Origin: Candidatus Hydrothermarchaeum profundi | Lineage (GTDB): Archaea; Hydrothermarchaeota; Hydrothermarchaeia; Hydrothermarchaeales; Hydrothermarchaeaceae | Assembly: GCA_002011125.2 (NCBI GenBank) | Contig: MTMF02000009.1 | Coordinates: 210,332 to 274,331, forward strand | DNA: 64,000 nt | Direction: 5' to 3' | Part shown: one piece after another, positions 13,212-44,723 of the stretch | Position numbering within the stretch: the first letter of the stretch is position 1 | Layout: each line of letters begins with the position of its first letter | Position numbers and translations under genes: made by a program | The notes under the pieces: model-generated | Databases searched by the model: none | What the model was told of the DNA's origin: nothing | Seen by the model: only the letters and a program-made list of their open reading frames with translations

Positions 13212-15473
13212 TTAAAACCTCTCTATTACTTTTTCAAATTCATCTAACCAGTTTAATAATCCCTGTAAAGTTCTCCTCCCTCCTAAATAAGGATAAATTT
13301 TTTCTATATATGTGATCGTTTTCCTTCTAATCTCTTCTGTTTTTTGTAAAGCTAACTCGGAGTTCTTAGCCCTTTCAGCTTCTACTAGCTCCTGCTTCGT
13401 TAGTGATAAATATTCATTGATTTCTAAATTGAGCTTACCTGCCGCTTCCCTAAGATTTTTCATTATTCGACTACATCTCTCATGTACAGATTCCTTTTCT
13501 AAGGCAGATTCCCTAAAAATCTCCCTTATCCTACTTCTCATTTCAAGAGAGCCGTCTTCCATGACTGTTTTTAGAAATGTCTCTGGAGAAACCTTGCCAC
13601 TGAGAATTAGCATCTCAATATCAGAGAGATCACTGCACACTATATTGCCCTCTTTTGCTAGCTTGCTAACCAAGTTGGGGCAATTCCTTTTCCCCTCTTT
13701 CTTCATCTCTCCTATAAACTCTAATGCAGTGCCTATTGGAGTCACCAAGTGCTCTACGGCGATTTCTAATGCTTGACATAGGTCGTCTATATGTTCCCAA
13801 GTTTCATTAAGAAGCTCTGGGGGCATTCCCCTGCGTCGCCCTATTTTAGCTTGTATTCCTAAAAAGTTTGCGAGAGCCATACTTTTTAATCTGAAAATGT
13901 ATGGGATTTCTAAATACTCTACTCTCGCTTTATTACCGTCCCTTATAACTCTCAAAGGTACTAGAGTTTTATTGTACTCGTCGCTATTTATTAATGCAGA
14001 ATTAGGATATGCCATCAGGACATCGCTAAAACTAAAAATAGGCAATACAGGATAATTGATAGACCCCTTGATGATATCAGAAACTAATAATAGCTCCTCT
14101 GAAACTTCAGATAGCGCATTTTTAGCCTTTGGTCTAGTAGTAATAATAAAAACACCGGGAATTATCCCCTCCCGTAGACACATCGAAATAATCTCTTTAG
14201 ATTTTTTAATATAGTTCAGCTCGCAGCCATCAGAGGTTTTCTTAAAATATTTAATTTTTGATAGAACAAAACTTTCAACGCCTATCTGCAGTTTCCTGAA
14301 GTTTGCTTCCTTAAATTTCTTTAACAATGCATAATCGATGCTTTCCACTCTAACCATGGCGCCAAAAATAAGTTTATCGCTTAATCCATGCAATCTTATC
14401 TTATCCAACAAGTTCTCTACCCATCTTCGATTCTGGACAAAGTGATCATCCTCGAAGGTAATCCTTGTTAAACCATTTTCAGCTGCCTTCTCTATTACAT
14501 TAAGGACCTTGCCTACAGGATATCTCCTACCGGGTAGATTGCTAACACTGCAGTAAGAGCATTTTCCCCAGTTGCATCCTCTTTGCACATAAAGGCTTAA
14601 ACCATCCCATTTTCTTTTTTTTATTTCGTCCCATGGGAAATCCAATGGGAGGTCTTCCATCTCACTTCTTGAAGGATATGTATATAAATTCCGAGAAAAT
14701 TCTTTATATCCTATTGGAAACTCCTCTTTATTTTCTTCCTCCCACGCTCTCTTGGATTCCTCATAAGCCTCCTCCGAATCTACTTTCAAAATATGCTTTC
14801 CATTCCTTGAATTAACGATTACACCACTAAGAGGAAACGAAATCTCTATGCCTTTAATTTTTCTTTTTATATGGATATTTTTAAGACAATCTGCCTGCTT
14901 CTCAGTTATAGGACTCTTATACTGCGCAGAGCTTATAAGTTCTATTAACTCTTCGCCTAGAAAATCCACGTCTTTTCTAGCAAATTTCAAGCTCTCTTCC
15001 AAAGGCACTTTAAGTTCTTCATTTTCCGGGGCTCTTTTTAGATATTCAAGGATAAGGGGAAAAACTAAGTCTCCTTCCCCTTCTACCACGACATCAATTC
15101 CTACCGCATTCGATAAGGGTATGGCATTATCTTCGACGCCATGTCCTCCAACGACAACAACTACTCGGGGATCAACCTCCTTAACCTTTATTACTGTTAT
15201 AAGGTTCTCTTTAAGTTCTATAGAGCTTAATATCGAGACAGCAACTACATCGTAGTTTCTACTCGCTACCTTTTCTAATAACTCCTCCTTATCTATAGAA
15301 AAATCAACCTCATGGCCTACATTTTTCAATAGTTGGACAAACTGCAGGATCGTTGGAGCTTCATCCCGGTTATACTTACTATAATCGAGATAGAAAGCTA
15401 TCTTTTTTGGAGAGGTCGTTTTTAGCATTTTAACTAGTATCTCACCTACAACTAAAAAACTATTTGTATTCAT
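13212..15473 (-). CDS. B12-binding radical SAM protein
   Basis: Large cytoplasmic protein of 753 residues. Residues 20-150 resemble the cobalamin-binding Rossmann domain (VVVVVGGHGVEDNAI, VEGEGD). A radical SAM core follows with cluster cysteines 300, 305 and 308 in CNWGKCSYC, a C-x4-C-x2-C spacing rather than the common C-x3-C-x2-C. The helical C-terminal third matches nothing I know. Class B enzymes of this kind often methylate unactivated carbon or phosphorus; the substrate cannot be read from the context. It diverges from the HD hydrolase with a 13-base gap. Confidence 0.8.
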   Translation of the reverse strand: MNTNSFLVVGEILVKMLKTTSPKKIAFYLDYSKYNRDEAPTILQFVQLLKNVGHEVDFSIDKEELLEKVASRNYDVVAVSILSSIELKENLITVIKVKEVDPRVVVVVGGHGVEDNAIPLSNAVGIDVVVEGEGDLVFPLILEYLKRAPENEELKVPLEESLKFARKDVDFLGEELIELISSAQYKSPITEKQADCLKNIHIKRKIKGIEISFPLSGVIVNSRNGKHILKVDSEEAYEESKRAWEEENKEEFPIGYKEFSRNLYTYPSRSEMEDLPLDFPWDEIKKRKWDGLSLYVQRGCNWGKCSYCSVSNLPGRRYPVGKVLNVIEKAAENGLTRITFEDDHFVQNRRWVENLLDKIRLHGLSDKLIFGAMVRVESIDYALLKKFKEANFRKLQIGVESFVLSKIKYFKKTSDGCELNYIKKSKEIISMCLREGIIPGVFIITTRPKAKNALSEVSEELLLVSDIIKGSINYPVLPIFSFSDVLMAYPNSALINSDEYNKTLVPLRVIRDGNKARVEYLEIPYIFRLKSMALANFLGIQAKIGRRRGMPPELLNETWEHIDDLCQALEIAVEHLVTPIGTALEFIGEMKKEGKRNCPNLVSKLAKEGNIVCSDLSDIEMLILSGKVSPETFLKTVMEDGSLEMRSRIREIFRESALEKESVHERCSRIMKNLREAAGKLNLEINEYLSLTKQELVEAERAKNSELALQKTEEIRRKTITYIEKIYPYLGGRRTLQGLLNWLDEFEKVIERF

Positions 15474-24877: not shown

Positions 24878-25096
24878 ATGAAAGAACAAGTAGCTGAGGT
24901 TATTAGGCGCATAAGGCCAAACTTGCAGGCAGATGGTGGCGACATCGAATTAATAGATGTAAAGGATGGCGTCGTGAAAGTTAAGCTGACTGGAGCTTGT
25001 GGTAGCTGCCCAATGTCTCAGTTGACATTGAAACTGGGAGTAGAGGCAGCTATTAAAGAAAACGTGCCTGGAGTTGAAAGAGTAGAAACCGTTTAA
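24878..25096 (+). CDS. NifU-like Fe-S scaffold protein
   Basis: A 72-residue protein matching only the C-terminal Nfu domain of iron-sulfur scaffolds. It has [17 protein letters not shown] and the paired cysteines CGSCPMSQ that hold a transferable cluster. Its supply role fits the many Fe-S enzymes around it. GAAAGGAGTG precedes the ATG. The stop codon overlaps the convergent aminotransferase gene by four bases. Confidence 0.93.
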
Positions 25097-26376
25097 GTAT
25101 ACTTCTTTAGAGATTTATCCAGAGAGCTTATAGCACATTCAACCTGCTCTTTAGTAATTACAAGGGGAGGTTGGAATCTGAGAGTGCAGTTGTAGTAGCC
25201 TCCTTTACCTATCAAAATTCCGTCTTCCCTCATTTTATTCTTAACCTTATCAGCAAGATCAACTAAAGGCTTTTTTGTATGTTGCTCCGCTAGCTCAACG
25301 CCTATCATCAGCCCTTTACCTCTCACATCACCAACAACAGGATATTTTTCCTTCAGTTCTAGTAGTTCATTTTTAAAAAACTCACCGATTTTTTTGGAAT
25401 TTTCTATTAACCCGTCTTCCTTAAGTGCTTTTATGTTACCGAGAGCAGCAGCGCAAGAAACCGGATTTCCACCAAATGTCGACAGATGGTCTCCTGACTC
25501 AAAGGCATCTGCAATTTCCTCCTTCGCTATAAAGGCGCCTAAGGGTAAACCTCCAGCGATACCTTTTGCGAGGGGCATTATATCAGGCTTTAGATCCCAT
25601 ATTTCAGATGCAAACATCCTGCCACATCTACCAAAGCCTGTTTGAACTTCATCCACTATAAAAAGAGAATCATTCTCTTTGAGAATCTCGTGAATAATCC
25701 TAAAGTACTCTCCATCCGGGGGGTGGATTATCCCTCCTTCTCCTAAAACTGGTTCAATAAACATTCCAGCAACATCTCCGCTTGAAGTTGTGCCGATTAT
25801 TCTCTCCAAGGACCTAGCACACTCTAGATCGCATTCAGGATATTCTAACCGATATTTACACCTAAAACAATAAGGAGCATCGGCATAGGTTACCCCAGTT
25901 AAAAAGGGACCCATTTTATTCTTATATTTTTTCTGTCCTGTTAGAGTTAACGCACCAAAGGTCCTCCCATGAAAGGAATACGTCAAAGAAATGAACTCCT
26001 TTTTCCCAGTATATTTCCTAGCAAGTTTCATTGCTCCTTCAACTGCCTCTGCTCCGCTGTTGGAGAAAAATGATTTTTTTAGTCCCTCTGGAGTGATCTC
26101 TGCAAGTTTCTCTGCCAGTTCTCCAACAGTCTGCAGGTAATACACATAGGAGCAACAGTGGAGATGTTTCTCTAGCTGTTTCTTAATTGCCTCAATTACA
26201 TGAGGATTCCGATGGCCAACATTAATCACGGATAATCCAGAAAAACAGTCAATATAAGTCCTCCCCTCAGTATCTTTTATAGTAGCCCCTTCGGCAGACT
26301 CTACTACAAAGGGATCCATTCCCTTAGATATAGGCATTATAAACTCTTCATACTGCTTTATGGTCTCCATATCCAT
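25093..26376 (-). CDS. Class III PLP-dependent aminotransferase
   Basis: Moves an amino group from an omega-amino or branched substrate to 2-oxoacid, about 427 residues. Visible are [41 protein letters not shown] and the PLP lysine in [14 protein letters not shown]. The Cys-rich insert [17 protein letters not shown] is typical of one branch of the family often named 4-aminobutyrate or acetylornithine aminotransferase. The ATG at 26376 (or 26370) sits right after the ferredoxin stop. It is the last gene of the mtbC-AOR-ferredoxin operon, where it could yield an aldehyde for the oxidoreductase. Confidence 0.9.
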
Positions 26377-26381
26377 CACCC

Positions 26382-26786
26382 TTAAGAAGTCTGTAATATA
26401 AGCGCGCCAGGATAACACCAAGATACACACTTAGGCTCTCCATTACAGACATCACATTTCATTGCCTTGTTAGCATCTTCATCCATATATATACCATTAA
26501 AGGGACATGCTGTAACACATGCGCGGCATCCAGTACACTTCTCTACATCTAACAGGGTTCTTCCTGTTTCTTCGTCTTTATAGAGAGCATCATATTTACA
26601 TGCTATAATGCATGGAGGATTCTTGCACTGCCTACAGACTGCTGGAACACTTTCTGCATATTTGCTATCAACATTCACCTTAATCAATGCTTTTTCTGGC
26701 CAAAAAACTTCTCTCTTCTCCATCGAACAAGCAAGTTGACACAGCTTACAGCCAGTACACTTCTCTTTTATGATTTTAACAAACAT
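26382..26786 (-). CDS. Four-cluster ferredoxin subunit paired with AOR
   Basis: Electron-transfer protein of about 134 residues of the HycB/AorB kind. It has repeated cysteine motifs CTGCKLCQLAC, CRQCKNPPCIIAC, CTGCRACVTAC and CDVCNGEPKCVSWC, enough for up to four [4Fe-4S] clusters. The ORF overlaps the end of the AOR gene, so the two subunits are made together. The likely job is to accept electrons from aldehyde oxidation and pass them to ferredoxin or another carrier. Confidence 0.92.
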   Translation of the reverse strand: MFVKIIKEKCTGCKLCQLACSMEKREVFWPEKALIKVNVDSKYAESVPAVCRQCKNPPCIIACKYDALYKDEETGRTLLDVEKCTGCRACVTACPFNGIYMDEDANKAMKCDVCNGEPKCVSWCYPGALILQTS

Positions 26787-26788
26787 CC

Positions 26789-28708
26789 TCAAAGTCGCTC
26801 CACCTCCTCGGCGAGGTCTTCCATACCTAGCTCTATGAGCTTTTCTTTTTTCGGTATTCCATTTTCATCCCACTGCCTGAGTTCGTAATATTCCTCCAGC
26901 ATCTTCTTGAAGTCCTTATACTTTATTTGAACTCCTTTAGTAGGTCCATCCTGAATCGGCTCATTGAAGATCCGCCATGGAAGGGCTTCGTCATCTTTTC
27001 TCCTTAGTCCCTCACGAACATTGAATAATCGAGTCATGTTTATTATTCTCTCGCTTGTCCTCTCAAGCTCTCTCCTATCTCTAATATCGTCCCAACCTGT
27101 AGCTCTTGCTACTAAATCAGCAATCGGATCAGAAATTGGAGGTAACGCAAAATCACACATTATAGAAGAAAACTTTAGACCATAATGATGCTGTTGCCTA
27201 TAAACGATGTATGCCTTACCCTCAGGATTCCATCTTTCAGTCTCAATTGGAATATTCTTCTCACCTTTTTCTGGGTCAGCATCCAACCAAAATGTACCCC
27301 ATACTTCCACCCCTATAGGCCATGATCTGAGGTGGCATCCCCCCCTATCGGCTGTTGCATAGGCCAAAGGCATACTTATAGCAGCCCTAGGTTCATATGC
27401 TGGGAGCTCTAGTCCTTTCACTTGCATGGCAAATCTTTCAGAGCCTTTTCCAATCTTCTCAGACGCTCGTTTTACCCCCTCTGCCAACAGATCTCCTATA
27501 CCTTCCCTTCTAGCAATCTTATTTACCATTGTGATCATTGCCTCTGAGTCCCCCCATCTCAACTCCACTCCGTCAAGGTCCTCCTTCGAAAGTATTCCTT
27601 TTTCGTAACACTCCATAGCCCAAGCTAATGTATTCCCAGTTGAAATTACGTCCATTCCCATCCTATCGCACAGGAGATTTAACGCAACTACTGCCGGTAA
27701 GTCTGAAAGATTGCAGTTTGATCCTAACAATGCTAGGGTCTCATACTCCGGGCCTTCGACCATTGAGCCAGCATACGGGCCTTCCTCTACCTTGAGAAAA
27801 TTGCTACACGCCATTGGACATTGAATGCAAGCCCTATTTCTGACTCTAAGTTTTTTAACAGCCTCTGGCCCCAGTTTCTCACCCATCTCTTTAAAAAATC
27901 CTGACTGGAAATTTTTGGTTGGAAGTGCCCCCACCTCATTCGTCCAACCAGATAACTCCGGAGTTCCTGCCTGATCTTTCCAGCTTATAGCAAAAAGTGA
28001 GTCTGGTTGCTCTATTAGATGCCGAGTTGTAGTCTCTTTTGCTGCTTCAACAAATCCTTCAGGATCTGCAACTTCAACCCTGCCTGTTCCCTTTACCGCT
28101 ACTGCTTTTAAATTCTTTGAGCCAAAAACAGCTCCAGCTCCACCACGGCCGTGCTGCCGATAATACTCATGATTAACCAGGGCATATCTGACAAGGTTTT
28201 CACCAGCTGGACCTATAGTTAGAACTGAGATATCTTTCCCGTATTTCTCCTTTAAGGCATCCTCTGTTTCGTGAGTATCTTTCCCCCATAAAGACTCTGC
28301 GTCTTCTATTTTTACTTTTTCATCTTTTATCCAAACATAACTGGGGTTCTCCGCTTTTCCTTCAACTATTAACGCATCATATCCTGCGTATTTGAGTTCT
28401 GCTCCAAAATATCCTCCAGCAAAACTATCCAAGAAAATACCGGTAAGAGGAGACTTAGTTACTAGCGCATACTTACCGCATGCTGGTGCAATTGTTCCTG
28501 TGAGAGGCCCGGTTACTATTATAGCTTTATTTTCCGGTGAAAGAGGATCGGTCCCTTTAGGTATCTCATGGTAAAGCATTCTAGCGCCAAGCCCCATCCC
28601 TCCCACGTATTTACGTGCCCATTCAAGGTTTAAGGGTTCATCTACAGCTTCTTTGGTAGTCAAGTTTACCCTTAATACCTTGCCCTTATATCCTCTAACA
28701 GATGTCAT
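26789..28708 (-). CDS. Tungsten-containing aldehyde:ferredoxin oxidoreductase
   Basis: Oxidises an aldehyde to the carboxylic acid with a tungstopterin and one [4Fe-4S] cluster. The 639-residue protein has the N-terminal pterin-domain pattern (GYKGKVLRVNLTT, YVGGMGLGARMLYHEIP) and the cluster cysteines in CIQCPMACSNF with a fourth in the C-terminal part. The ATG at 28708 replaces longer starts because the protein family begins right there. The preceding gene, mtbC, ends 30 bases upstream. Which of the AOR, formaldehyde or glyceraldehyde subtypes this is cannot be told by eye. Confidence 0.93.
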   Translation of the reverse strand: MTSVRGYKGKVLRVNLTTKEAVDEPLNLEWARKYVGGMGLGARMLYHEIPKGTDPLSPENKAIIVTGPLTGTIAPACGKYALVTKSPLTGIFLDSFAGGYFGAELKYAGYDALIVEGKAENPSYVWIKDEKVKIEDAESLWGKDTHETEDALKEKYGKDISVLTIGPAGENLVRYALVNHEYYRQHGRGGAGAVFGSKNLKAVAVKGTGRVEVADPEGFVEAAKETTTRHLIEQPDSLFAISWKDQAGTPELSGWTNEVGALPTKNFQSGFFKEMGEKLGPEAVKKLRVRNRACIQCPMACSNFLKVEEGPYAGSMVEGPEYETLALLGSNCNLSDLPAVVALNLLCDRMGMDVISTGNTLAWAMECYEKGILSKEDLDGVELRWGDSEAMITMVNKIARREGIGDLLAEGVKRASEKIGKGSERFAMQVKGLELPAYEPRAAISMPLAYATADRGGCHLRSWPIGVEVWGTFWLDADPEKGEKNIPIETERWNPEGKAYIVYRQQHHYGLKFSSIMCDFALPPISDPIADLVARATGWDDIRDRRELERTSERIINMTRLFNVREGLRRKDDEALPWRIFNEPIQDGPTKGVQIKYKDFKKMLEEYYELRQWDENGIPKKEKLIELGMEDLAEEVERL

Positions 28709-28738
28709 GATATAGTTTTTAACTAAAACCAAATATTA

Positions 28739-29377
28739 TTATTTCGGTAATACCTTTTTCGCTACAGCCACAGCACTTTTAGAGTCTTCTCCATACCCGT
28801 CCGCTCCTATTTCCTCTGCATAGTCTTCTGTTATAGGAGCACCTCCTATTAGTACCTTAAACTCAGATCTAATCCCTTTATCCCTTAGGATTTCTATGAA
28901 ATCCTTCATAGCGCCCATAGTCGTAGTCATCATCGCACTTAAACCAATTCCCTGAGCACTTTCTTTAATAGCAGTTTCAATTATTTTCTCCAGAGGAACG
29001 TCGGCTCCTAGATCGATTATTTCGTAGCCGTTTACCTTTAGCATTATGGTGACTATGTTTTTACCTATGTCATGAATATCTCCTTCAACAGTCGCCATCA
29101 CGATTTTAGGGCCTTTGCCATCTTTCTTTGAACTTAGTATATGAGGTTCAAGCACTTCTACAGCGGAAGTCATCGCATCGGCAGACATCAATACATGAGG
29201 CAAAAATATCTTACCCTTTTCAAATAACTCACCAACGACTCTCATCCCTGCCCCATATCCTTTTTCTATAGCGTCTATTGGGTTTACTCCCTTTTCTAGC
29301 GACAATTTGGCTAACTCAACTGCCTTATCTACATCTCTCTCTATGATAGCCTCTTTCATTGACTCAAATATCTCCAT
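28739..29377 (-). CDS. mtbC: Methylamine-type corrinoid protein (MtbC/MtmC family)
   Basis: Carries the methyl group on cobalamin between a methylamine methyltransferase and an acceptor methylase. The 212 residues hold an N-terminal four-helix cap (1-88) and a cobalamin domain with the axial-ligand motif DIHDIG (Asp100, His102, Gly105) and GGAPIT. It diverges by 69 bases from mtbB, its probable partner; the MtbC name rests on that adjacency. AOR, ferredoxin and aminotransferase genes follow on the same strand. The acceptor methylase MtbA is not in the window. Confidence 0.9.
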   Translation of the reverse strand: MEIFESMKEAIIERDVDKAVELAKLSLEKGVNPIDAIEKGYGAGMRVVGELFEKGKIFLPHVLMSADAMTSAVEVLEPHILSSKKDGKGPKIVMATVEGDIHDIGKNIVTIMLKVNGYEIIDLGADVPLEKIIETAIKESAQGIGLSAMMTTTMGAMKDFIEILRDKGIRSEFKVLIGGAPITEDYAEEIGADGYGEDSKSAVAVAKKVLPK

Positions 29378-29446: not shown

Positions 29447-30835
29447 ATGGAGTATAGAACGAGAAGTGGAAATGGGAAGATCATCAGCATGAAAAAAAGA
29501 GAAATAGTACGAGAAATAGAGGACGGAATAAACGATGCAACTGAACGCGCTGATATCGAGCCCCTGTCAGATTCTGAAGTTGAACATCTATTAGATATCC
29601 TACTCCAGAAAGACAAAGTAATAACCGTTAAAGCCGGAGACGAAGTCATTCTCACAAGAGATGGAGGGACATTGAAGTATACCGGCTGCACCCGATATAG
29701 CGGCGTCCCATTATCAAGAGAACAGGCAGTGTGGGTTGGAGAGAGGATTCTCAGTCTTGATACTATGGAATTGGGGCATATAGATTATAGTATCAAACCG
29801 GTTAAACCTATTGCTCATGATGAATCGAGTGTCCTCGAGAATATTTTGCTAAGCTCCATTATTCCTATCTTCTATGGAGCCATGCCAAACCTAGGGCTTT
29901 ACTTCACTTCGCAAGGAGGGCAGTTTCCAGATTACTCAGCCTTAATGAACAAAGGAAAATTCAAAGAATCTCAAGAAGCACTTTATGAAGCAGCCCAGAA
30001 GTTAATAGAGGATATAAAGTATGTTTCTAAAGTATTCTCTAAATCAGGAACTGATGGAATAAATCTAGATACCGCAGCTGCTGCTGGCGACGCTGAATTT
30101 TTTGCTACGTTAAATGCAGTAGAGTTCATTAGCAGAGAAATTAAGATACCAGTACAAATTGGAATGGCATCGGAACAAGTACTAGGTCTCCACTGCGAGC
30201 TAAAATACAAGGGGGAACTATTGGCAGGGGCATATCCACATATACAAGGAAAGCTAGCTGAAAGAGCTGGAGCCACTATATTTGGGCCTGCAATAAATAC
30301 TAAGGTCTCTAAGTCTTTTCCATGGAACCTTGCTAGAGCGCTTACCTTCGTGAAGAGATGCATAAAGGACTTAAAGATACCCATCCATGTTAACATGGGG
30401 ATGGGAGTAGGAGGGATTCCTATGAGTGACGTGGCTCCAATGGACTCGGTTTCTCGGGGGGCTAAGGCTATGATAGAGATAGCTAGAGTTGACGGCATAT
30501 AGCTAGGAGCAGGAGATGTTGGAGGAGTAGACATGACTTATAGGGTATGCTCTGGCATGGGGGGAATAAGAACTTCTGGAGACCTAGTTGCTCGAGTGCA
30601 GCTGAGTAAAAAAGTGAAACTAAAAAAAGCTAAGGAATATGTAGCAAAAAAACTGGGTGTCGCCGTTGAAGTCTTATCTGACGAGTTCGGTATGAAAAAA
30701 ATTAGAGAGGAATTAGATATCGGTTCTCCATTGGCTACCACATATAAATCGAAGGGTATAATCGCCAAGAAAAATATCGCAGAGATACTCGATCTGCCTA
30801 TACCCTCTGTAGAAAGATCCTTTATTTCTTCATAA
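29447..30835 (+). CDS. mtbB: Dimethylamine:corrinoid methyltransferase MtbB with in-frame amber (pyrrolysine)
   Basis: Transfers a methyl group from dimethylamine to the corrinoid protein. The 462-residue product is collinear with methanogen MtbB: MELGHIDYSIKPVKP, FYGAMPNLGLYFT, NMGMGVGGIPM, then EIARVDGI-TAG-LGAGD. The TAG at 30500-30502 (residue 352) sits exactly where pyrrolysine is found in MtbB, and the 110 residues after it (SGMGGIRTSGDLVARVQLS) remain family-like. Pyrrolysine insertion therefore fits; a nonsense mutation does not. MtbB family length is about 465. pylS, pylT and pylBCD are not in the window. Confidence 0.95.
30500..30502 (+). other. Amber codon read as pyrrolysine
   Basis: A single TAG in frame within mtbB, flanked by GGCATA and CTAGGA. 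In Methanosarcina MtbB the residue at this point of the active-site barrel is pyrrolysine, and the surrounding ARVDGI and GAGD residues match. TAG is also used as a stop elsewhere in the window, so read-through must be tolerated or context-dependent. Confidence 0.93.
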
Positions 30836-30848
30836 AAATAAGTAAAAA

Positions 30849-32582
30849 ATGAAAGCTGAAACACATTTAGATGTAATGCTTAATAACTTGGGCGATGGCT
30901 CGCTAGAAGAACGCTTTATCAGGGCTAAGAAGACTTTCTTATTAGAAAAACTTGGCAATCTGCAAGAGGAGCTTGAGAGAAAGGGAGTGGCACAGGACCT
31001 GAGATTTTTGATAATGATGCTCTACATATTTGACTTTATAGAAAGAGAAGTCGGAGTGAAATACGCAGCCGAAATTTTAGACTCTCTCAAGCATAGTGAC
31101 TGGCCATTTGAATATTTTAAACCCCTATTGCGAAAGGATAATCTCGGAAAAAAAATCGAGGTAGGAGTCGACCTTAACTATAGGAAGCTAGATCCCACTA
31201 CCAAAGAAAAAACCGTTGAACTCGTCCATAAATTATGGAGAGACCTACGTCTCTCTGGAAACTTCTCAGAGGATATCAGTAGAATTATAGAGGATAAAAA
31301 AAAGAAATACCGGGCACTATCCTCAGAAATAGAAAAACTGCGGCGTGAGATAGTTACATATTTGACAAGTGTTAACGCCAAAAAAACAGAGATTAAACTC
31401 TTTAATATTGGCATCGTTCCCACCGAACTATGCCCAAATAGCTGTAGATTTTGTCTCGCAGCATGGAAGACCAGAACAAGCGAAAGGATCTCAAGACTCT
31501 TAAGTGATGAAGATTTTAAACAACTTGCTGACCAGATAATAGACTACGCAAATGAGAAGAAAGTGGTCATAACCATTACTGGAGGCGAGCCTCTTCTTGA
31601 ATTGGATAGAGTCCTCTATATTATAAGCAAAGCGGATACCAGGGTCGACCTCTCCACCAGTGGTTTTTGGGGCGGTGACAAGGAAGAGGCAACAATGATA
31701 CTCTCAAAGATCGAAAGGGCTATAAAAAATAATAGAAATACCGACTTTAGATTCTACCTCCAGATAAGCCTAGATTACTTCCACCAAGAGGTGCGGCTGG
31801 AAAATGGAGAACTACGCGAAAATATCCCTCTCTCTAATATCATCAATATAATAGAACTCTGCCAAACAAAATTCACAGATATACGGATATGCCCTATCAC
31901 TAAATACACTATCTATGAAGACCCATTAGCGTACCTAATTAAGGAGCTTAAAAGTAGAGGATGGAAAGTAGAACTCTATGAGAAAAAATATGACCTCCGC
32001 TTCCAAGTGCCTGTAATCGTAGACGATAAGTTAGTTAGAAAACCCGCATTGCTGATGGCGAAGCTCAGAGTTGGCAAAGGAAAGCCTCTTCTCATATCCT
32101 ACTCGGCTGTTGAGAGAATAGGAAAAGCTGAAGCCTTAGAAAAGTTTGAGTACCCAACATTTGAAAGTGACGCAGAAAAATTTTTAGAAGGTGAAGCCAG
32201 CGGGAAATTTCCAATAACGGGTATTGAAGTCAGCGATGATGGCAATGTATACCCTGGAGCCCATTCTTTATACTCTTGGTCGCTTGGTAACCTTTTGGAA
32301 ACCGATTTAAAAAACATACTTGAGATAGCAGAGCACGACCCCCTAATTATATACCTTCAAAGCAATCCGAGAAGAATAGTTGAATTCGCTCTAGAATATG
32401 ACCCTAAAATTGTAGACAAAGCTAAATCCTCATCTTCTCCTATGGCAGCAGTATTTAAAATCCTTGAAACACCCGAAGCTAGACTTAGCATTACAAGAAT
32501 GATTATTGAAAAAGATCAAGAGTATGGTAGAAAAATTAAAAAAGAGATTAAAAATATGAAAACAAAAACTTCCTTTAATTAA
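30849..32582 (+). CDS. Radical SAM protein with long helical N terminus, unknown
   Basis: Predicted radical SAM enzyme, 577 residues. Residues 1-180 are helical and charged. The core begins with Cys195, Cys199 and Cys202 in CPNSCRFC, followed by ITGGEPLLELDR and an ISLDYFHQE stretch seen in SPASM-type and other AdoMet enzymes. It is not PylB, which is about 350 residues. The start is 13 bases after the mtbB stop with no clear ribosome site, so it is probably co-transcribed and might act on the methyltransferase system. That is inference. Confidence 0.8.
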   Translation: MKAETHLDVMLNNLGDGSLEERFIRAKKTFLLEKLGNLQEELERKGVAQDLRFLIMMLYIFDFIEREVGVKYAAEILDSLKHSDWPFEYFKPLLRKDNLGKKIEVGVDLNYRKLDPTTKEKTVELVHKLWRDLRLSGNFSEDISRIIEDKKKKYRALSSEIEKLRREIVTYLTSVNAKKTEIKLFNIGIVPTELCPNSCRFCLAAWKTRTSERISRLLSDEDFKQLADQIIDYANEKKVVITITGGEPLLELDRVLYIISKADTRVDLSTSGFWGGDKEEATMILSKIERAIKNNRNTDFRFYLQISLDYFHQEVRLENGELRENIPLSNIINIIELCQTKFTDIRICPITKYTIYEDPLAYLIKELKSRGWKVELYEKKYDLRFQVPVIVDDKLVRKPALLMAKLRVGKGKPLLISYSAVERIGKAEALEKFEYPTFESDAEKFLEGEASGKFPITGIEVSDDGNVYPGAHSLYSWSLGNLLETDLKNILEIAEHDPLIIYLQSNPRRIVEFALEYDPKIVDKAKSSSSPMAAVFKILETPEARLSITRMIIEKDQEYGRKIKKEIKNMKTKTSFN

Positions 32583-40926: not shown

Positions 40927-41091
40927 ATGAGAAGAAGAAAAAATTTGATATGCGATAAATGTGGAAACCCCATAGAAGGAGTGGTGGTAGTAGTGGATTT
41001 CAGATGCTATCATCCCGATTGCACAGACAAACGGCCTTCTAGGGGAAGGGCCGTAGAGTCCTTTAAAATTATAAGGAGGATAAAAGCATGA
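40927..41091 (+). CDS. Small zinc-binding-type protein before pstS (54 aa)
   Basis: A 54-residue protein. Cysteine pairs ICDKCGNP and CYHPDC suggest a zinc finger, followed by a basic C terminus. Its TGA overlaps the pstS ATG (ATGA), and a TATA box lies just upstream, so it is the first gene of the phosphate operon. I do not know the family. A role in sensing or in control of the operon is possible. Confidence 0.65.
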   Translation: MRRRKNLICDKCGNPIEGVVVVVDFRCYHPDCTDKRPSRGRAVESFKIIRRIKA

Positions 41092-42029
41092 AAAAACTCA
41101 GCCTATTTATTTTATTTTTGGCATTTTTTTTAGCCGGATGCTTGGGAGGAACAACAAATCAAGAAGGAACTCTTTCAGGCACTGTTAAAATAGCTGGTAG
41201 TAGCACCGTTTATCCTATTTCGGTTGCTATAGCAGAAGAGTTTAACAAGAAATATCCAGAAGTCGTGATACCAGTCCAGTCCACAGGCACTGGCGGAGGA
41301 TTTAAAAACTTCTTCATTCCTGGAAAAACGGATATTAACGGTGCAAGCCGCCCGATAAAAGAAAGCGAAATAGAGGCTGCTAAGAAAAATGGAATAGAGC
41401 CGATTGAATTTCAGGTCGCCATTGATGCTATAACTGTGGTTGTAAATCCCGCTGCTGATTGGGTAGAGAGTATGAGTCCAGAGGAACTTAGGAAAATATG
41501 GAGACCCGATAATCCCGCAAAGAAATGGAGTGATATTAACCCAGAATGGCCTGATGAACTTATTGAGCTATATGGGCCAACAAGTGCTTCCGGTACTTTC
41601 GATTATTTTACCGAGGTAATTATGGGGGAAAGCGGGGTATCAAGGAGTGATTATCAAGGCACTGAGCAAGATAATACTATAGTACAGGCAGTATCCCGGT
41701 CTAAATATGCACTAGGGTATTTCGGGTTAGCCTTCTACCTTCAGAACAAAGATAGATTAAAAGCTTTGAAGATTTATAATGGAGAAAGATACGTCGAGCC
41801 TAGCATAGAAACTGCGAGATCTGGGGAATATCGTCCACTTTCACGTCCATTATTCATATATGTTAACAAAAACTCTCTTAAACGGCCTGAAGTCCGGGAA
41901 TTTGTAAGGTTTTATCTCGAGAGAACTAGTACTGAACTGATAACTCAAGTAGGGTATGTACCGGTGCCAGAGGAAATTAGAGAAGAAAATCTAGCTAAAT
42001 TGGAACGTATATTAAGCGAACTACAGTAA
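41088..42029 (+). CDS. pstS: Phosphate-binding lipoprotein PstS
   Basis: Extracellular phosphate receptor of the Pst ABC transporter, 313 residues. It has a short signal peptide with the lipobox LAGC at residues 15-18, so a lipid-anchored form is likely. PstS motifs are clear: GSSTVYPIS, QSTGTGGGF, and SASGTFDYFTE. It overlaps the small zinc-type gene and precedes pstC by 74 bases, where a second TATA element occurs. Confidence 0.95.
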   Translation: MKKLSLFILFLAFFLAGCLGGTTNQEGTLSGTVKIAGSSTVYPISVAIAEEFNKKYPEVVIPVQSTGTGGGFKNFFIPGKTDINGASRPIKESEIEAAKKNGIEPIEFQVAIDAITVVVNPAADWVESMSPEELRKIWRPDNPAKKWSDINPEWPDELIELYGPTSASGTFDYFTEVIMGESGVSRSDYQGTEQDNTIVQAVSRSKYALGYFGLAFYLQNKDRLKALKIYNGERYVEPSIETARSGEYRPLSRPLFIYVNKNSLKRPEVREFVRFYLERTSTELITQVGYVPVPEEIREENLAKLERILSELQ

Positions 42030-42069
42030 ATGACAGAGATTGAAATATCGTCGGTATACCAAAAAACAT

Positions 42070-42082
42070 CGGATTTATATAG
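42070..42082 (+). promoter_or_regulatory. Internal TATA element before pstC
   Basis: The stretch GGATTTATATAGG is centred about 28 bases before the pstC ATG. That spacing is right for a leaderless transcript and there is no ribosome site. The permease and ATPase genes may therefore have a promoter of their own, besides read-through from pstS. Confidence 0.45.
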
Positions 42083-42103
42083 GAAGATATTTGATAAGAT
42101 AAT

Positions 42104-43042
42104 ATGGTGGTGGAACCATCGAAGTTGACTTCCCTCACCGGTAAAAGTAGAAGCCTATCAGAAAGAGTAATCAAATGGTTTTTCTTTTCATGTGCTCTCC
42201 TTTCAGTTATAACTACTATCGGCATAGTGTTTGTACTTATCGTGGATGCTGCAGAGTTCTTCAGCAAAGTATCCATAATCGAGTTTTTCACTAGCACACG
42301 ATGGAGCCCAACTATAAAACCCGCAGAATATGGGGTGCTTCCGCTTATCAGCGGCACGCTACTGGTGACTTTTTGGTCCGCCGTAATTGCGCTGCCTTTA
42401 GGTGTGGCGTCTGCCATATATCTTAGCGAATATGCCTCAGAAAGAGTTAGAGCTATAGTTAAACCTGCTCTTGAAATATTAGCCGGCATACCCACGGTGG
42501 TCTATGGTTACTTTGCCCTAGTATACATCACCCCTCTTTTAAGCAAAATATTTCCTAGCATTAGCGCCTTTAATGCCTTGAGTGCCTCAATTGTTATAGG
42601 AATAATGATATTACCTATGGTTTCAAGCATGAGTGAAGACGCTATGAGAGCCGTTCCAAATACGCTGAGAGAAGCGGGATATGGTCTTGGGGCTACAAAA
42701 TTTCATGTCTCTACAACAATAGTTTTCCCCGCAGCACTATCAGGAATAATGGCATCTTTTATACTTGCCATATCTCGGGCTATAGGTGAAACCATGGCAG
42801 TAACTATTGCCGCAGGAAAATACGCTCGAGTAGTAAATCCATTCAACGTTGGAGATGCATTACTCAAACCCATCGAAACAATGACTGCTGCTATGGTAGA
42901 AATTGGAATGAGTGACGTTACAGGAGATTCTGTAGCTTACAAAAGCTTGTTCGCAGTCGGCTTGACCCTCTTTGTAATGACTTTCTTGATGAACGTTCTA
43001 AGTCAATATATCAAATCTAAGTACCGAGAGGTATATCAATGA
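42104..43042 (+). CDS. pstC: Phosphate ABC permease PstC
   Basis: Membrane subunit of the phosphate transporter, 312 residues with six hydrophobic helices and a long second extracellular region. The ABC-permease coupling loop is [25 protein letters not shown]. It is followed by pstA with a four-base overlap (ATGA). There is nothing unusual in length or motifs. Confidence 0.95.
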
Positions 43043-43908
43043 GTAGGGTGGTAGTAGGCGGTATAAGAGACTGGAAAGATTTTGGTTTTCTATTTTTATG
43101 TATCGGTGCAACATGGGTCGGGATACTTTCTCTCGCAGCGTTATTGGTATATGTTTTCTGGGACGCGATTGGATGGATTGACTGGCAGTTTATAACTAGC
43201 CCACCTTCAAGGTTCGCTGAAGAAGCAGGCTTATATCCTTCTCTTGTGGGGTCTATATTCGTAATAACTCTTGTTGGAATTCTTTCTTTACCGTTGGGTG
43301 TAGGGGCTGCCATCTATTTGCAGGAATATTCTACGAGTTCATTTCTCACCAAACTAATAGAAACAAATATATCAAATCTCGCTGGAGTACCCTCTATTGT
43401 TTATGGACTTTTAGGCTTAGGTATCTTTGTCTCTACCTTAGGATTGCCTCATGGGACAGTGATTGTAGGTGCATTTACTTTAACCCTACTAATCCTCCCG
43501 ATAGTGATAGTCTCTTCCCAAGAAGCTATAAAGGCTGTACCAGATACTCTTAGACATGCCGCCTATGGAATTGGCGCTACACGGTGGCAAACGATTAGAA
43601 GCGTTGTGCTACCTCAGGCCATCCCGGGGATCATGACTGGAACTATTTTGGCTCTTGCTAGAGCCATGGGGGAAACGGCCCCCCTAATAATGATTGGAGC
43701 TGCAACATCAATATTTACCTCCCCTCGTGGGATATTTAGCCCCTTTAGTGCTATGCCTCTCCAGATATTTGCATGGTCTGATCTCCCTCAGCGAGAGTTC
43801 CAGCATGGTGTTACTCCGGCTGCAATAGTGGTGCTTCTAATTATTTTGCTCTCTATGAATGCTGTTGCTATATTCATACGGCATAAATATCAGAAGCGGA
43901 GAAGATGA
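43039..43908 (+). CDS. pstA: Phosphate ABC permease PstA
   Basis: Second membrane subunit, 289 residues, with six helices. The coupling loop [25 protein letters not shown] is clear, as is the [12 protein letters not shown] segment typical of PstA. It overlaps pstC and pstB by four bases on each side, so the three are one translation unit. Confidence 0.95.
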
Positions 43909-44723
43909 AATTCAAAATGAAGTTACCAAGTAAAATAGAGCAGGAAATCATTGACAGTAGCACAAAATCTTCCACTGTACTAGAATGTAGAAATTTAAGT
44001 GTATTTTATGGTGATAAGCCCGCAATCAAAAATGTTAACATGAAGATTTTCAGGAACAAAGTCACTGCGATTATAGGGCCAAGTGGATGCGGCAAATCTA
44101 CTATTCTCAGATGTTTTAATAGAATGAACGATCTCATCAAAGGAGCTAAAGTTGAAGGAGAGGTATTATTTGATGGGAAAAATATTTACAGTCAAGATAT
44201 AGACCCAGTAGAGCTACGAAGAAGAATTGGTATGGTCTTCCAAGTGCCTAATCCATTTCCTAAAACGATATTTGACAACGTAGCATATGGCCCAAGAATC
44301 CATGGTGAAAAAAATAAAGAAAAGCTTAGAAGAATTGTCGAAGACAGCCTTAGAAAAGCTGCTTTATGGGATGAAGTAAAAGATCGTTTGAATACTAACG
44401 CCCTAGACCTTTCTGGGGGCCAGCAACAGAGACTCTGCATTGCCAGAGCCTTAGCGGTCCAGCCAGAGGTGATTCTTATGGACGAACCAGCATCCGCGCT
44501 GGACCCTATTGCAACTGCTAAAATCGAGGAGCTTATATTAAATCTAAAAAAAGAATATACTGTAGTAATCGTTACTCACAACATGCAACAAGCTGCCAGA
44601 GTAGGCGACTATACAGCGTTCTTTCTGATGGGAGAGTTAATAGAATATGACGTAACTTCGAAGATATTCGAAAAACCCTCTGACAAACGCACAGAAGACT
44701 ACATAACGGGGAGGTTTGGATAA
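43905..44723 (+). CDS. pstB: Phosphate ABC transporter ATPase PstB
   Basis: ATP-hydrolysing subunit, 272 residues, cytoplasmic face of the membrane. It has Walker [10 protein letters not shown], signature LSGGQQQR, Walker [14 protein letters not shown] and the switch histidine in [11 protein letters not shown]. The first 25 residues extend beyond the family norm. It overlaps pstA, and the following phosphoesterase begins with its last base. Confidence 0.97.

Follow-up and report, generated by a model that had tools for sequence, protein, structure and literature searches.

The gene considered here, mtbB1, encodes a protein of the MtbB (dimethylamine methyltransferase) family and is interrupted by an in-frame amber codon. 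This raises the question of whether pyrrolysine is inserted at that codon and, if so, on what the protein would act and where the methyl group would go. The gene lies in a stretch of 64,000 nucleotides (the window) on contig C9 of Candidatus Hydrothermarchaeum profundi, very probably JdFR-18, an archaeal genome of 2,186,281 bases in 19 contigs with a G+C content of 0.39-0.40; earlier reports describe JdFR-18 with 2.06 Mb, 22 contigs, 39.1% G+C, and 97-98% completeness (PMC6775978, PMC6759336). With a probability of roughly 0.92, we consider mtbB1 to encode a full-length corrinoid methyltransferase with pyrrolysine, in an archaeon that is not a methanogen; from this enzyme, methyl groups would pass into the Wood-Ljungdahl pathway. 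The gene and its amber codon were annotated as follows.

29447..30835, plus strand: mtbB1, MtbB-family corrinoid methyltransferase, 462 codons including the pyrrolysine codon, ending in TAA
30500..30502, plus strand: in-frame TAG as putative pyrrolysine codon (residue 352), from its register in relatives and a full pyl cassette
30500..30599, plus strand: match to Rfam PYLIS_2 (mtbB), 36.1 bits against a gathering score of 36

Translation of mtbB1 revealed exactly one internal TAG, at codon 352, in a reading frame of 462 codons with zero frameshifts, no second internal stop, and a terminal TAA. The read-through product matched TIGR02368 across residues 2-456 (463.9 bits; cut-off, 369.1) and PF09505 (Dimeth_PyL) from end to end (565-568.7 bits). 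Relatives were sought in 84,980 species genomes; 80 loci were recovered, and no relative was closer than 52-54% identity. In an alignment of 85 family members, covering methanogens and other archaea as well as Desulfobacterota, Bacillota, and Actinomycetota, the column of the mtbB1 amber codon was TAG in every sequence, and its occurrence in mtbB1 is therefore not a chance event; a random nonsense mutation would fall on that codon of the 462, and as TAG rather than TAA or TGA, with a probability of ~0.0007. The first-pass annotation had described a single TAG at 30500-30502 within an otherwise intact 462-residue MtbB, and both family models and the alignment bear this out. Taken together with the pyl cassette of the genome (below), UAG at codon 352 is very probably read as pyrrolysine.

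The same annotation had supposed that PylS, tRNA-Pyl, and PylBCD are encoded elsewhere in the genome and proposed a search for their genes. This search recovered the complete set in a single operon, ordered pylT-Sn-Sc-B-C-D, on the minus strand of a second stretch of contig C9 (L086) ~1.08 Mb from the window, with each protein scoring above its curated cut-off.

L086 13653-13584, minus strand: tRNA-Pyl with anticodon CTA (CUA), from anticodon and fold
L086 13577-13284, minus strand: pylSn, TIGR03912 97.4 bits, cut-off 51
L086 13268-12435, minus strand: pylSc, TIGR02367 294.5 bits, cut-off 178
L086 12390-11236, minus strand: pylB, 452 bits, above the curated cut-off
L086 11239-10079, minus strand: pylC, 380 bits, above the curated cut-off
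L086 10082-9279, minus strand: pylD, 222 bits, above the curated cut-off

The predicted tRNA folds with a single base separating the D stem from the acceptor stem, a D loop of five bases, and a variable region of only two, a compact shape that is a known trait of tRNA-Pyl. Among solved structures, PylSc was matched best by that of Desulfitobacterium hafniense (270 bits; PDB 3dsq, 2zni), with the Methanosarcina enzyme at 194 bits. None of the pyl genes of the operon ends in TAG. Twenty-two other genomes of the phylum yielded neither mtbB nor a PylS above cut-off; within this 23-genome sample, which represents a single class, the pyrrolysine system is confined to the present genome, through either gain here or loss elsewhere.

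The use of TAG as a stop codon was assessed in a 494-kb sample of genome stretches (the window, L086, L087, and L113-L132). TAG terminates 69 of the 396 open reading frames of at least 150 codons (17.4%) and 16.9% at 250 codons, shares that are approximate because the frames were called mechanically. TAG made up 31% of the three stop triplets in the sampled sequence, and relatives without pyl end 23-40% of genes in TAG, in small samples of other G+C content. Backup stops showed no enrichment, as the next TAA or TGA was no nearer after TAG stops than after the other two. A "Pyl code", in which UAG would be fully reassigned, was rejected on the basis of the ~17% share and of the lack of this enrichment. 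UAG stop use is given as below 6% for Pyl archaea and 21% for Sifarchaeia (PMC9723677). Rare use (<6%) is typical yet not strictly defining for Pyl archaea and was not found here; this genome is of the Sifarchaeia kind, with a dual meaning of UAG and no reassignment. Sifarchaeia would thereby be joined by a second lineage of archaea that uses UAG frequently as a stop and also as a codon for pyrrolysine, and the cell must therefore somehow distinguish the two. That TAG is a working stop for ~17% of genes is also what speaks for an ordinary stop at 30500, with mtbB1 broken and pyrrolysine not inserted, a reading made very improbable by the register of TAG across the family and in the paralogue MtbB2 (below), as well as by the complete pyl cassette. 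Because UAG retains its role as a stop, readthrough in mtbB1 must compete with termination. A dedicated RNA element for insertion was considered and rejected: the PYLIS_2 match only reaches threshold, and the matching stretch folds no better than shuffled sequences (z = 0.20). None of the four TAG contexts of the genome folds better than shuffles, and the match is therefore probably due to coding conservation rather than to a folded element.

Three further methyltransferase genes with exactly one TAG each were identified on contig C9.

C9:1878790-1880166: mtbB2, TAG at the same position as in mtbB1, product 52% identical to MtbB1
C9:1885113-1886459: mtmB, TAG at codon 202
C9:1898904-1900310: mttB, TAG at codon 333

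The amber codon of mtmB coincides with the site at which MtmB of M. barkeri contains pyrrolysine, position 202 (PMC9842639). All three genes lie within ~22 kb, every one with its own corrinoid protein, in a region that also holds an ammonium-transporter-like gene, cobalt transport genes, and the corrinoid activase RamA (TIGR04270, 790.6 bits; cut-off, 500). By gene content, this region is a complete predicted set for tri-, di-, and monomethylamine. Two CbiMNQO-like cobalt transport clusters (L086 14976-17500 and L087 6269-8834) each adjoin a methyltransferase locus.

Two additional loci were observed. A homologue of MtmB on the minus strand of L117 (7685-9046; C9:1059694-1061034) is free of TAG and has valine in place of pyrrolysine; its closest relative, at 42%, is found in Ca. 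Hecatella. Demethylation of tetramethylammonium has recently been shown for MtqB, a non-Pyl MtmB (PMC13044021). Separately, a cluster at L115 4734-15090 (C9:1584.7-1595.1 kb) combines MtaA/CmuA-like proteins, a corrinoid protein, and two MtrH-like genes with a LysR-like regulator and genes of a nitrate/taurine-type ABC transporter. It appears to be another corrinoid methyltransferase system.

The fate of the methyl group was then addressed from gene content. The first-pass annotation had suggested a fate other than methane and named mcrA and mtbA as genes to look for. No match to mcrA was obtained in the genome under conditions in which two positive-control methanogens matched, and Wood-Ljungdahl-side genes were present, namely, two of the MtrH family, Mer, and CdhC. 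These observations agree with the suggestion: with mcrA absent and genes for MtrH, Mer, and CdhC in place, the most likely destination of the methyl groups is the Wood-Ljungdahl pathway and not methane. The draft assembly is 97.65% complete, and mcrA could in principle be absent by chance. An MtaA/MtbA-like gene, divergent from pylT, was found (PRK06252, 374 bits) and falls below the equivalog cut-offs of both MtaA and MtbA. Carr et al. 2019 note that in Hydrothermarchaeota the methyl group has an alternate fate (PMC6775978), and Sun et al. 2021 argue for acetate as the outcome in Sifarchaeia (PMC9723677).

From these components, the following route may be proposed. PylBCD would synthesize pyrrolysine, which the split PylSn/PylSc would charge onto tRNA-Pyl(CUA). 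At codon 352 of mtbB1, some of the ribosomes would then decode UAG as pyrrolysine. This residue of MtbB1 would bind an N-methylated amine and offer its methyl group to the Co(I) of the neighboring corrinoid protein, MtbC1. An MtaA/MtbA-like or MtrH-like transferase could then pass the methyl group to a pterin carrier, and from there it would enter the Wood-Ljungdahl pathway, with either oxidation to CO2 via Mer or incorporation into acetyl-CoA via CdhC. The genes, the register of the TAG, the missing mcrA, and MtrH, Mer, and CdhC are observed; expression of mtbB1, charging of the tRNA, catalysis, substrate, and carrier are inferred from them.

The product of mtbB1 is a strongly diverged member of its family. 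It scores 565-568.7 bits against PF09505, compared with 765.7 bits for MtbB2, and its end branch in the MtbB tree, at 1.71 changes per column, is the longest of all (median, 0.043). Among 84 full-length MtbB sequences, 104 positions are invariant apart from MtbB1, with one exception allowed at most; MtbB1 retains 92 of these and differs at 12, and the next highest count of differences is 7. Four of the 12 changes follow the pyrrolysine (V355A, P358V, M361V, and H365Y), another 4 fall in the loop at 155-163, and the residues around the pyrrolysine are not those of dimethylamine enzymes. An AlphaFold2 model of MtbB1 (pLDDT 87.9, pTM 0.90) is TIM-barrel-like, with residue 352 on strand 350-353, both changed stretches after predicted strands, and a low-confidence loop at residues 80-86. 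A search of the PDB by sequence returned no MtbB structure, and the closest fold to the model was cobalamin-dependent methionine synthase, with a TM score of just 0.40. Regarding phylogenetic placement, membership of MtbB1 in a clade of Desulfobacterota with linked aminotransferase genes was rejected (AU test, p = 0.022), and a topology in which MtbB1 is a recent duplicate of MtbB2 was not (p = 0.143). MtbB1 does not look like the standard dimethylamine methyltransferase of the organism, for which MtbB2 appears the better candidate. The first-pass assignment as a dimethylamine methyltransferase accordingly holds for membership in the MtbB family; specificity of MtbB1 for dimethylamine is uncertain, because a canonical MtbB2 is encoded elsewhere and the active-site region of MtbB1 is changed.

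Genes surrounding mtbB1 were annotated as follows.

28739..29377, minus strand: mtbC1, cognate corrinoid protein, divergent from mtbB1; TIGR02370 (pyl_corrinoid) 234.7 bits, cut-off 215.3
26789..28732, minus strand: aldehyde ferredoxin oxidoreductase (AOR); PF01314 449.8 bits, PF02730 278.2 bits
26382..26792, minus strand: ferredoxin-like iron-sulfur electron carrier, from iron-sulfur subunit matches; overlaps the AOR end
25093..26430, minus strand: class-III (omega) aminotransferase; PF00202 398.4 bits, PRK08117 440.7 bits with the cut-off of 574 not reached
30849..32582, plus strand: radical SAM protein, 577 residues; PF04055 41 bits; 13 bases past mtbB1

MtbC1 contains the cobalt-ligand motif GDIHDIG, which fits D-x-H-x-x-G, and is the most diverged of the four corrinoid partners (43-51% identity to the other three, which share 54-69% with one another). 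The AOR gene begins 6 bases past mtbC1 in the same direction. As the called frame of the aminotransferase overlaps the ferredoxin gene, its true start probably lies downstream of 26430; its score against the GABA transaminase model (351 bits) is below the cut-off of 506.65. The radical SAM protein had no equivalog match and zero relatives in the 80 other mtbB loci, and its N-terminal ~185 residues match no known family. Elsewhere in the window, an ABC transporter with a PBP-like binding protein (41088-44723) lies near several molybdopterin synthesis genes and possibly takes up tungstate or molybdate for AOR and other molybdopterin enzymes, and a 753-residue protein encoded at 13212-15473 carries B12-binding and radical SAM domains.

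Three accounts of MtbB1 were weighed. The first, that it is a second, fast-evolving dimethylamine methyltransferase isozyme, expressed, for example, under other conditions, comes close to an even chance. MtbB1 scores above the cut-off of the dimethylamine methyltransferase equivalog model of NCBI and retains 92 of the 104 invariant residues as well as the pyrrolysine, and several methanogens have multiple copies of mtbB; the isozymes of methanogens, however, sit on short branches of the tree whereas MtbB1 occupies the longest, and its changes cluster around the catalytic residue.

It is also possible, though we hold this only tentatively, that MtbB1 has been neofunctionalized to demethylate an N-methylated amine with a carbon chain, such as an N-methyl omega-amino acid, with the amine then converted to the aldehyde by the aminotransferase and to the acid by AOR and ferredoxin. 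The 12 lost invariants, which include the positions now occupied by V358, V361, and Y365 as well as the loop at 155-163, the exceptional branch length (1.71 against a median of 0.043), the separate canonical MtbB2, the likewise most diverged corrinoid partner, and the operon of MtbC1, AOR, ferredoxin, and aminotransferase are all consistent with such a shift. An independent parallel is provided by the Desulfobacterota clade, where a GABA transaminase gene lies near mtbB in 5 of 10 loci. Against this, the aminotransferase of the window is only ~38% identical to the Desulfobacterota GABA transaminases and fails the GABA transaminase cut-off, MtbB1 itself falls outside that clade, and the operon may be unrelated to MtbB1, AOR and class-III aminotransferases being common in peptide-fermenting archaea. 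Decay of MtbB1 under relaxed selection, with the TAG kept, could likewise yield a very long branch and lost conserved residues and might account for the low-confidence loop at 80-86, but is improbable given 462 codons with neither frameshift nor second stop, the 92 retained invariants, and the intact adjoining corrinoid partner with its cobalt ligand.

Among the 80 mtbB loci, a class-III aminotransferase was found in 6 and AOR in 4, every one of them in a single clade of pyrrolysine-MtbB proteins from Desulfobacterota/Myxococcota; at five loci of this clade, the aminotransferase exceeded the cut-off of TIGR00700 (GABA transaminase). Genes of the aminotransferase type lie upstream of mtbB at L018, L024, L031, L032, L038, and L048, and at L021 (5366-10550), ferredoxin, AOR, an MttB-like gene, and mtbB stand in one row. 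The likeness of the mtbB1 locus to these loci is one of kind and not of descent, given the AU test and the ~38% aminotransferase identity. By analogy, this pattern suggests that the substrates of some pyrrolysine-MtbB proteins may be chain-bearing N-methylated amines. The GABA-transaminase-linked clade may thus offer a route for N-methylated GABA, for instance 4-dimethylaminobutyrate, a product of gamma-butyrobetaine that is described as having no known fate (PMC8604678). The literature searched contained no paper that connects MtbB with an aminotransferase or with AOR. The joint proposal that MtbB1 acts on a new, chain-bearing N-methylated amine subsequently degraded by aminotransferase and AOR, with the Desulfobacterota clade acting likewise on N-methylated GABA, is held with slightly less confidence. 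If true, it would extend pyrrolysine chemistry beyond tri-, di-, and monomethylamine; the rebuilt active-site region of MtbB1 beside amine and aldehyde genes raises the question of whether pyrrolysine also acts on compounds beyond these three.

Pyrrolysine decoding in a non-methanogen, as put forward in the first-pass annotation, is correct, although as a novelty it was anticipated in print (PMC9723677, PMC9499178, and PMC6775978). JdFR-18 was the first of the Hydrothermarchaeota with a reported pyl cluster (Sun et al. 2021, PMC9723677), and its methylamine methyltransferase genes and lack of mcr are described in PMC6775978 and PMC6759336. Split pylSn and pylSc, with PylSc nearer the bacterial form, were described for Hydrothermarchaeum by Guo et al. 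2022, as summarized in a review (PMC9499178). The system found here agrees with these accounts in its split pylSn and pylSc, pylBCD, methylamine methyltransferases, absent mcr, and Wood-Ljungdahl genes. That pyrrolysine decoding lets a non-methanogenic archaeon channel methylamines into the Wood-Ljungdahl pathway is thus supported but known. Three points of the present analysis were not encountered in the accounts of JdFR-18 consulted: where the TAG codons lie, the diverged second mtbB and its neighborhood, and how often TAG serves as a stop.

Sifarchaeia (Asgardarchaeota), as described in PMC9723677, are similar in being non-methanogenic and in having Pyl-MtbB, an MtrH-type transferase, the Wood-Ljungdahl pathway, and 21% UAG stops. 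They differ in that pylS lies ~6 kb from pylBCD, whereas here pylS is split and the genes form a single operon, and in that MtmB and MttB carry pyrrolysine here as well. MtbB/MtbC of Methanosarcina share the family, the position of pyrrolysine, and the corrinoid partner with the present pair; in contrast, MtbB1 alters residues that are invariant there, and the methyl acceptor and end product would differ, as Mcr is missing. The bacterial split PylS of Desulfitobacterium hafniense provides the best structural-database match for PylSc, but the pylT-Sn-Sc-B-C-D operon and the archaeal host set the present system apart. Relative to these known systems, what looks new is the diverged MtbB1 copy, with its changed active-site region and its neighborhood of amine and aldehyde genes.
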